Shown here: positions 37,410 through 39,934 of the stretch, piece by piece
How positions within the stretch are numbered: the stretch's first letter is position 1
Layout: each line of letters begins with the position of its first letter
Origin: an uncultured Paracoccaceae bacterium
GTDB lineage: Bacteria; Pseudomonadota; Alphaproteobacteria; Rhodobacterales; Rhodobacteraceae
Assembly: GCA_947500135.1 (NCBI GenBank)
Contig: CANMQX010000005.1
Span: 372,001-436,000, forward strand
Direction of reading: 5' to 3'
DNA length: 64,000 nt
Program-made: the position numbers and the translations under genes
Notes under the pieces: model-generated
Told to the model about the DNA's origin: nothing
The model's database searches: none
What the model saw: the letters and a program-made list of their open reading frames with translations, nothing else

Positions 37410-38591
37410 CTATTCACACCCGCCGCGCGCCCAGCTCTGTAGGTTTTGCTTGAAGGTCCCGCCATAAGGATGCTGTTTTCCCAAATTTTCTGATCCCGCA
37501 TCCGACAGATAGGTATTTGCCTGGTCACATAGGTTTGCACGCTGCCAGTCATGGCAATTGGAACATTCCTGATCTTTCCAATAGCTTTCCGGCAACCCTT
37601 CTACCGGGGGAAACAACGGATTACCCTTGATCAGTTCGGCAAGGGTCTGACCCACGATTTCCGGGTCACCATTCTGCAGCGGGACATCAAAGAACACTGC
37701 TGATGGTTCGACCGGTGTGACCGGTTCATCGACCGCAGGCTGTTGCGCCGCAGCCAGTTCAGTCGCCAGCAGCGCAACCAGCTTGGTTTTTGCAAGGTCG
37801 CTATGTCTGCCCGTTGGGTACGTTTCCAGAAAGTTCACAAAATCAGCTGAGACATCGCTGCTTTCAATCTGTTGCCAGGCCAGTGTTTCTGGGTCCCGCG
37901 ATGGCGCCTCTGACGGGTCAAGCGCGGAGCTGACGTAAAACGACTTGCTTGCCGCCAGTTCGATTGCCGCCAGATCCAGAAATGGATCTGCCTGCACCAT
38001 CACATCGGCCAATTGCCGTGCAAAGGTTATATCCTGTGCCGCTTCGCCACCCAGCGGGGCGGCAAACACAACAAGGTTGCCATCTGCCGCAAGCAATTCT
38101 GCCAGCCCGATTGAGGACACATTGGCAGGGTCACCCGCACAGCAATCGACAACAACGATTGATTTCTTTTCCTCATCCCAATCCAGCGGTGTCAGCAGCG
38201 TTGACATCGGAACGGATGCGACCGGCAAATCTGCGGCACTGTCCAAAACGACATCTGCGGGCAAAAGGTAATTTTCTGTTTCGGTGCCTGCGCCATGGCC
38301 AATATAATATATGAACCCGATGCTGCCCGGTTCGGCGTCTGCCAGGCGTTGCGTGTATTCAAAAATACCGGCCTGCATTTCGGCCCCAGTCGCATTTTCA
38401 AGGCGCTGAACATCGAACCCGATCTCAGTAAGACCTGATTCGATTACCTGCGCACCGTCGCGCGCATGCGCAACAGATGTGACATTTTGGTAATCCCCGT
38501 TACCAATCACCAAAGCGATCCGGTCTTGCGCGAGTGCCCCGGAAGGAGCAAATGATAGCGCCCCAAGGGCTGCTAAAATCCTGAAAAACAT
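37410..38591 (-). CDS. Exported caspase-like (metacaspase/C14) protein with C-terminal CxxCH region
   Basis: Signal peptide MFFRILAALGALSFAPSGALAQ; RIALVIGNGDYQN; His-Cys dyad YYIGHGAG / SIVVVDCCAG; C-terminal ECSNCHDWQRANLC...GKQHPYGG. Confidence 0.82.
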   Translation of the reverse strand: MFFRILAALGALSFAPSGALAQDRIALVIGNGDYQNVTSVAHARDGAQVIESGLTEIGFDVQRLENATGAEMQAGIFEYTQRLADAEPGSIGFIYYIGHGAGTETENYLLPADVVLDSAADLPVASVPMSTLLTPLDWDEEKKSIVVVDCCAGDPANVSSIGLAELLAADGNLVVFAAPLGGEAAQDITFARQLADVMVQADPFLDLAAIELAASKSFYVSSALDPSEAPSRDPETLAWQQIESSDVSADFVNFLETYPTGRHSDLAKTKLVALLATELAAAQQPAVDEPVTPVEPSAVFFDVPLQNGDPEIVGQTLAELIKGNPLFPPVEGLPESYWKDQECSNCHDWQRANLCDQANTYLSDAGSENLGKQHPYGGTFKQNLQSWARGGCE

Positions 38592-38845
38592 ATAAAACTC
38601 CAAAAAATACTAAACGGTGCCGTCAGTCCCACTTATACATATAATCGCATTGATCAATACTGTCGGGCAACCCTGAACTTTTATTTCCGTTTTCATAAAA
38701 TCGCCAGATTTAGCTGCGATTCGTTTTGAGAGAAGCACTGTTTCCGCTACAATTGGAACCTGTGTTGACAACCGTCATTCGTAAGATGCGGTCATTTTTC
38801 GACTGACCTGCATTATGTATAAATTTGTGATTGTGGAGTTAAGAC

Positions 38846-39934
38846 GTGCAAATATATCGGAAAACCCTATCGACTCATCTAAAGTATGCCGCATTGGCCA
38901 GCGCCATGTGCCTGAGCCCGCAGCTGGCTGTGGCCCAGGAAAATGTATTTTCCCCGGGCTGGGTGATGAACAACGAAGCCTCTGCCCTGCGGTTCCAGTC
39001 TGTGAAGAACGAAACCAAGGTCGAATCCAGCACCTTTGCCACCTATATCGGCTCCATCGATGAGGCTGGCCTGGCCACAGTGCGCATCCTTCTGGATTCC
39101 GTAGATACAAACGTGGACCTGCGCAACGTGCGCATGCGTTTCCTGATGTTCGAAACATTCCGCTTCCCCGAAGCCGTCGTCACCATGCAGATTGATCCGG
39201 AGTCCATTTCTGACCTGCAAGTTGTCCGCCGCAAGGTGATGACAGTTCCCTACACGCTTGTCCTGCATGGCGTCACATCAGAGCGCGAGGCCGAGATTGC
39301 CGTAACCTTGCTTGATGATGATCGGGTGTCGGTCACATCGGCGACGCCAATTTCGCTGCCGCTGGTCGATTTTGGTTTGATGGAAGGCATGAACAAGCTT
39401 GAAGAGGCCGCGAAGGTTGACATCATTCCATCGGCCACTGTGACCTTTGATTTCACATTTGATCGCGCTGAAACGCAGCAGACATTCACCAATGCAATGT
39501 TCGAAATGGCCGATGAATCTGGCCTGGGCGCACAGGCTGCACTGGAAGTTGATGGTGATTTTTCACTTGAGGCCTGCAAGGGTCGCCTTGAGATTCTGTC
39601 GCTGACCAATCGCATCAATTTTGGCACCAACAGTGCCGCGCTTGCCGAGGACAGTGCAGCGTTCCTCGATAGTATCGCCGAAATCATCAGCCGTTGCCCT
39701 GACTTGAACATTCAGGTTGCGGGTCACACCGACTCTGACGGTGACGCGCGTTACAACCAGACACTGTCTGAGGCCCGCGCGAATGCCGTGCTGTCCTATC
39801 TGGTCGGAACAGGCATTGAGGCCGAGCGGGTCCGTTCAGTGGGCTTCGGCGAAGCCACGCCACTTGCCCCCAACGACACAGCCGAGAACAAGCGGCGTAA
39901 CCGACGGATCGAGTTTTCTGTCACTGACGCCTGA
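38846..39934 (+). CDS. OmpA-family protein with N-terminal YceI-like domain
   Basis: Signal peptide; N-domain SSTFATYIGSIDEAGLATVRILLDSVDTNVDLRNVRMRFLMFET; OmpA C-domain QVAGHTDSDGDARYNQTLSEARANAVLSYLVGTGI...NRRIEFSV. Confidence 0.85.
   Translation: MQIYRKTLSTHLKYAALASAMCLSPQLAVAQENVFSPGWVMNNEASALRFQSVKNETKVESSTFATYIGSIDEAGLATVRILLDSVDTNVDLRNVRMRFLMFETFRFPEAVVTMQIDPESISDLQVVRRKVMTVPYTLVLHGVTSEREAEIAVTLLDDDRVSVTSATPISLPLVDFGLMEGMNKLEEAAKVDIIPSATVTFDFTFDRAETQQTFTNAMFEMADESGLGAQAALEVDGDFSLEACKGRLEILSLTNRINFGTNSAALAEDSAAFLDSIAEIISRCPDLNIQVAGHTDSDGDARYNQTLSEARANAVLSYLVGTGIEAERVRSVGFGEATPLAPNDTAENKRRNRRIEFSVTDA

Follow-up and report, generated by a model that had tools for sequence, protein, structure and literature searches.

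Does the gene at positions 37410..38591 of the window, the whole 64,000-nt stretch of an uncultured Paracoccaceae genome that was analysed, encode a protease wired directly to a haem sensor? An earlier note, made from the sequence alone, had proposed such a fusion. The gene lies on the minus strand, as do all of its features given below, with an ATG at 38591, a GGAG ribosome-binding site immediately 5′ of it and the stop codon at 37410-37412; its product is an exported caspase-fold protein of 393 aa with a C-terminal CxxCH domain. Export, as the note had claimed, is indicated by a predicted Sec-type signal peptide, read by inspection as MFFRILAALGALSFAPSGALA/Q (residues 1-21, ending ...SGALA/Q; 38529..38591). 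It is followed by a degenerate caspase p20-like domain (about residues 24-200; 37992..38522), in which Peptidase_C14 (Pfam PF00656) matched residues 24-168 with an E value of 1.4e-12. In agreement with this, a Foldseek search of the PDB with the AlphaFold2 model of the protein retrieved MALT1 and caspases (best E 6.9e-11, MALT1), which confirms the proposed fold. Against the NCBIfam model NF047832 (caspase EACC1-associated type) the protein scored 37 bits, below the curated cut-off of 140. A helical-repeat tether seen in the secondary structure of the model (about residues 234-282; 37746..37892) leads to the C-terminal domain (CTD), a candidate haem-c domain of ~95 aa delimited by alignments A1 and A3 and modelled with a pLDDT of 88.8 (residues 299-393; 37413..37697).

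The CTD represents an unnamed family of domains, and the exported caspase-like proteins that carry it are made by marine alphaproteobacteria. A scan across 84,980 species genomes yielded 94 loci, of which 80 were retained; they came overwhelmingly from Rhodobacterales, plus Roseibium, Labrenzia and Stappia, and a Mesorhizobium ciceri plasmid also carries the domain. It was present in 54 of the 395 genomes of an order sample (a count that omits G255, whose match, the 55th, is a weak broken fragment), in 1/385 genomes of a wider class sample and in 9/299 of a phylum sample, seven of these nine belonging to one other genus. A phage or mobile-virus origin was discarded, as no relatives were found among viral contigs. 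Most of the ~90 distinct members are proteins of ~500 aa with a signal peptide, an intact caspase (YYAGHG...ILDACR), helical repeats and the CTD. At least 11 distinct members are stand-alone proteins of roughly 170-237 aa that consist of a signal peptide, a tether and the CTD, without caspase; the helical-repeat tether is present in several of them and missing from others. Signal peptides were predicted on the CTD forms examined.

The CxxCH of the window copy, CSNCH, is encoded exactly where the note had placed it (37551..37565) and comprises two Cys and the candidate proximal ligand His347. Its conservation across genomes, on which the note had made its proposal depend, turned out to be complete: the CxxCH, the His of HPxGG, two further Cys, three Trp, a Tyr, a Gln, a Lys and other residues were invariant in 94/94 distinct CTDs, while the two residues inside the motif occurred in 13 combinations. 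Spacing was almost fixed, as CxxCH-x7-C-x17..19-HPxGG-x13-C. Shuffled versions of the 393-aa protein yielded a CxxCH in 0.09% of trials, and a chance origin of the motif is ruled out because it is invariant in all 94 of these distinct homologous domains. The HPxGG histidine is His374 in the window copy (GKQHPYGG; 37470..37472), the same later His that had been suggested as an axial ligand, and it is indeed a candidate for the distal position. The two further cysteines, Cys355 (37527..37529) and the C-terminal Cys392 (37416..37418), are candidate disulfide partners. Such a pattern would be expected of a bis-His c-type haem together with one disulfide.

The host genome encodes CcmH (E 9.1e-46) and therefore System I maturation. 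Searches of the CTD against Pfam and NCBIfam profiles gave no significant match to a known cytochrome family, and Foldseek matched its model to no cytochrome fold in the PDB. The sole PDB sequence match below 0.001 obtained by hmmsearch was set aside, since it amounted to one weak match in triplicate, inflated by a tandem repeat. Because neither profile nor fold searches tied the CTD to a known cytochrome, we infer covalent haem from the motif, and on that basis consider it likely. We also weighed a CTD that binds zinc, or is held together purely by disulfides, with a CxxCH that only coincidentally resembles a haem site. The four invariant Cys and the two His offer potential metal ligands, an XAF1 zinc-finger model matched 10/52 CTD members weakly (best E 9e-4), and such a structural domain would fit the lack of a known cytochrome fold. 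This explanation is nevertheless rather unlikely in an exported protein with a strict CxxCH, variable intervening residues and a System I host. Cys and His are usually interchangeable at zinc sites, and no Cys/His exchange was found among the 94 CTDs.

The caspase half has a different history in the lineage of the window. In alignment A2, its His99 (YYIGHGAG; codon 38295..38297) and Cys151 (the second Cys of VVVDCCAG; 38139..38141) align with the catalytic residues of the family, so the His/Cys dyad that had been reported is there. The domain around it is degenerate, however, and NNPF and QTPWDTSSL, the substrate-side motifs that follow the Cys in the family, were unrecognisable. A clean deletion of the p10-like region was considered and dropped, the alignment being ambiguous there; the region is better called degenerate. 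Among the 43 aligned members, the catalytic-position His was present in 41 and replaced by Gln in the orthologues L003 and L004, and the Cys was present in 42 and replaced by Tyr in L004. Thus Gln stands in place of the catalytic His in L003 (80% overall identity to the window copy), and neither dyad residue is left in L004 (72%); these two next orthologues kept 91-92% identity in the CTD. Within the window's clade, leaving out the near-identical pair of the window copy and L002, p20 domains were 64-73% identical and CTDs 89-92%. The reverse was found for canonical pairs, whose p20 averaged 69% identity when their CTDs were 50-60% identical. Between the window copy and canonical members, identity was 32% in p20 and 56% in the CTD.

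Estimates of dN/dS, which are rough on account of saturation at synonymous sites in distant pairs, were 0.06-0.15 for the caspase and, where computable, 0.01-0.04 for the CTD. Purifying selection acted on all regions (dN/dS 0.01-0.18, with the same saturation), which rules out a pseudogene: the gene in the window is not dead, because its dN/dS is low everywhere. Selection in this lineage favours the CTD while the caspase half wears away, and the caspase is probably not the working part there. In a tree of the YceI-OmpA proteins encoded beside the CTD genes, at least 3 changes on branches with good support were needed to explain the caspase-less state, and the degenerate clade of the window was sister to a caspase-less Yoonia clade, some long branches being unsure. 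The caspase is thus an optional part that has been lost repeatedly.

These results bear directly on the idea that a haem/redox sensor gates an active exported caspase, as a counterpart in bacteria to the coupling of cytochrome c and caspases. Most family members do carry an intact caspase on the same chain as the CTD, cleavage after Arg/Lys would be in keeping with the invariant Asp that precedes the Cys, judging from metacaspases, and the window copy retains both H99 and C151 and a low dN/dS in its caspase half. We nonetheless regard this gating as unlikely: the window clade shows the p20/CTD identities opposite to those of canonical pairs, the dyad has been lost in orthologues, the CTD and its partner persist without any caspase, and there was no sign of regulation. 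For canonical members a coupling of protease and haem is plausible. It is not supported for the window copy, since L003 lacks the catalytic His, L004 lacks both residues and sister loci carry the CTD without caspase. The note had been right on export, on the fold, on the motif and its conservation, and on the candidate ligand; a working protease-sensor fusion was premature for this particular protein, and both the partner gene and the link to type VI secretion had been missed. The domain family and its partner are the stronger finding.

That partner is the divergent gene at 38846..39934 on the plus strand, whose product combines a signal peptide, a YceI lipocalin-like domain (Pfam, 2.9e-8) and an OmpA peptidoglycan-binding domain (2e-23). 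Its sequence matched the PDB entries 3q34 and 2x32, and the X158 structures (2x32/2x34) match its YceI part. The intergenic region common to the two genes (38592..38845) could be aligned in the four closest loci only, and no regulatory motif was conserved in it across all seven loci compared. A gene of this YceI-OmpA family adjoins the CTD gene in 77/80 loci, mostly in divergent orientation; in Roseibium, Amylibacter and others the two genes abut or overlap on the same strand. In the 395-genome order sample, a close YceI homologue was found in 54/54 CTD genomes vs 1/341 others, counting related genomes as independent. Scores in CTD genomes were at least about 164-165 bits, followed by a gap down to 112 bits. 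The one exception, G398, has an in-frame TAG in its YceI-OmpA gene. Since the two genes go together in this way and the single exception is decayed, the CTD and YceI-OmpA are kept and lost together, and this near-obligate pair, rather than the caspase fusion, is the unit that persists.

In G398 (L162 3551-5566) decay is joint: after the TAG-bearing YceI-OmpA gene comes a caspase gene in which the dyad is lost (YYAGYG, DASR) and no CTD is present. In the Yoonia genome G002 (L156 16519-19028), a CTD-only gene and TssH have two adjacent YceI-OmpA paralogues as neighbours.

There is also a link between the pair and type VI secretion. TssC was detected in 50/54 CTD genomes and in 61/341 others (Fisher 2e-27, uncorrected for relatedness), and tssC lay at most 50 kb away at 30 of 55 CTD places, many of them at 5-12 kb. 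Annotated plasmids carry the order OmpA - caspase - DUF4384 - ExbD - ExbD - ExbB - TssA..., then a kinase, a phosphatase, an M15 peptidase and a second caspase, and the stand-alone CTD gene of the Yoonia genome with its two YceI-OmpA genes adjoins TssH. The system is not an invariable companion, however, as TssC is missing from four of the 54 CTD genomes. One of them, G227 (L163), is a single-contig genome that has a canonical caspase-CTD gene and YceI-OmpA, so the pair can exist without a T6SS.

In the window genome, the T6SS lies on another contig than the caspase-CTD gene and has its own pseudo-caspase. This second exported caspase-like protein, in which the His is replaced (YYAGRS), is encoded with an M23 peptidase on one side and a DUF1036 protein on the other (L155 10191-11804, contig C7, about 210 kb). 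An ExbB-ExbD-ExbD-TonB-like block sits inside the same locus (L155 12860-16146) and also accompanies the caspase-CTD gene at about 30 further loci. A standard T6SS does not include energised envelope genes of this sort; because the block occurs in the window genome's T6SS locus without a CTD, it belongs to the T6SS and not to the pair. Other features of these loci were a chemosensory set (CheA, CheW, CheB, CheD and a methyltransferase) adjoining the T6SS cluster on Parasedimentitalea plasmid pQS-2 (L161 23286-30199), and a second protein, which is very long (about 1000-1700 aa) and matches the T6SS sheath large subunit or bears that annotation (L141 39601-41473, continuing in L161 1181-4429, and many other genomes).

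The linkage with ExbB/ExbD, DUF4384, kinase/phosphatase and M15/M23 peptidase genes would suit a structural or regulatory T6SS accessory that senses peptidoglycan passage or envelope damage, with haem serving for stability only. Given the CTD genomes without TssC and the separate contigs in the window genome, we hold this to be doubtful. That the protein is a death effector directed at its own cell, or a toxin delivered by the T6SS, as the caspase family and the secretion-system neighbourhood might suggest, is highly improbable: a Sec-type signal peptide would direct the protein to the producer's own envelope, no immunity-like gene is paired with the caspase-CTD gene, and relatives tolerate catalytic loss.

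The reading that we favour, at a probability of roughly 55%, is that an exported haem-c domain and YceI-OmpA form a redox couple to which a caspase output was fused and from which it has been repeatedly lost. In such a couple, the Cys pair of CxxCH would hold the haem, with the adjacent His and the HPxGG His as axial ligands, and the remaining two cysteines of the CTD would form a disulfide. The domain would work as the obligate partner of the neighbouring YceI-OmpA protein, whose OmpA domain would anchor it to peptidoglycan and whose YceI barrel may carry an isoprenoid quinone or a lipid. We infer that electrons could pass between this ligand and the CTD haem, in the service of envelope antioxidant chemistry or of a redox reading of the envelope, with a caspase attached to the haem domain in most members to act as an output. 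The pair would probably serve or monitor the envelope work of the T6SS. An extended scheme, in which a widespread family of exported caspases has its proteolysis gated by the redox or ligand state of its own covalent haem, reads the state of the quinone in a peptidoglycan-anchored YceI-OmpA protein and acts in T6SS or envelope-stress control, so providing bacteria with a direct switch from haem to caspase, seems improbable to us.

Should the haem prove real, the CTD would represent a family of small c-type haem domains not described before, with a near one-to-one genetic partner, and the fused members would probably be the first proteins of the caspase family to bear covalent haem on their own chain. 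The family would also offer a simple laboratory system in which to ask whether a haem protein can control a caspase, and a lead on the function of unexplained caspase-like genes in alphaproteobacterial T6SS loci. CTD-only relatives are natural controls that separate haem function from protease function.

Searches of the open literature returned no precedent for a caspase-cytochrome or caspase-T6SS association. The caspase half resembles bacterial metacaspases/orthocaspases (PF00656) in its p20 fold, His/Cys dyad and Asp before the Cys, and dyad-less pseudo-variants of these are known in Alphaproteobacteria (PMC3501461, PMC6426788). The two surveys make no mention of cytochrome or haem, and the caspase-CTD family differs in being exported, bearing a CxxCH domain and being paired with YceI-OmpA. 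With the animal cytochrome c-apoptosome-caspase system it shares the company of a (putative) haem-c protein and a caspase; unlike in that system, the CTD has no detected cytochrome c homology, both parts lie in one polypeptide located in the envelope, and there is no sign of activation.

Closer parallels come from YceI lipocalins. These bind ubiquinone-8 and related lipids, ubiquinone-8 having been found in YceI barrels, and the YceI lipocalin BcnA works with LcoA, a cytochrome b561, against lipid peroxyl radicals (PMC9113575). Likewise, X158 is combined with small c-type domains in secreted proteins of cellulose degraders (Cbp2D/Cbp2E, TERTU_2913; X158, X183, X132; PMC10916295). A haem-c/YceI redox couple, held at the peptidoglycan by OmpA and with a caspase as an optional output, is the economical reading. 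As in BcnA-LcoA, for which ubiquinone-based redox chemistry has been proposed, a YceI lipocalin gene stands beside that of a (here putative) haem protein of the envelope; here, however, YceI is fused to OmpA, and its partner is a putative soluble exported c-type domain, often fused to a caspase, instead of a membrane cytochrome b561. The cellulose degraders' proteins are alike in their small exported domains with CxxCH and disulfides (presumed in the CTD) and an X158-like YceI; they are unlike in that our pair is encoded by separate genes, has no carbohydrate-binding modules and has another CTD sequence. Finally, the sCache_heme (DUF3365) sensors, exported domains defined by a conserved CxxCH (PMC12889525), have a Cache fold and signal-transduction fusions and neither a caspase nor a YceI partner, yet they resemble the CTD in being exported, in conserving the CxxCH and in occurring both as fused and as stand-alone modules.
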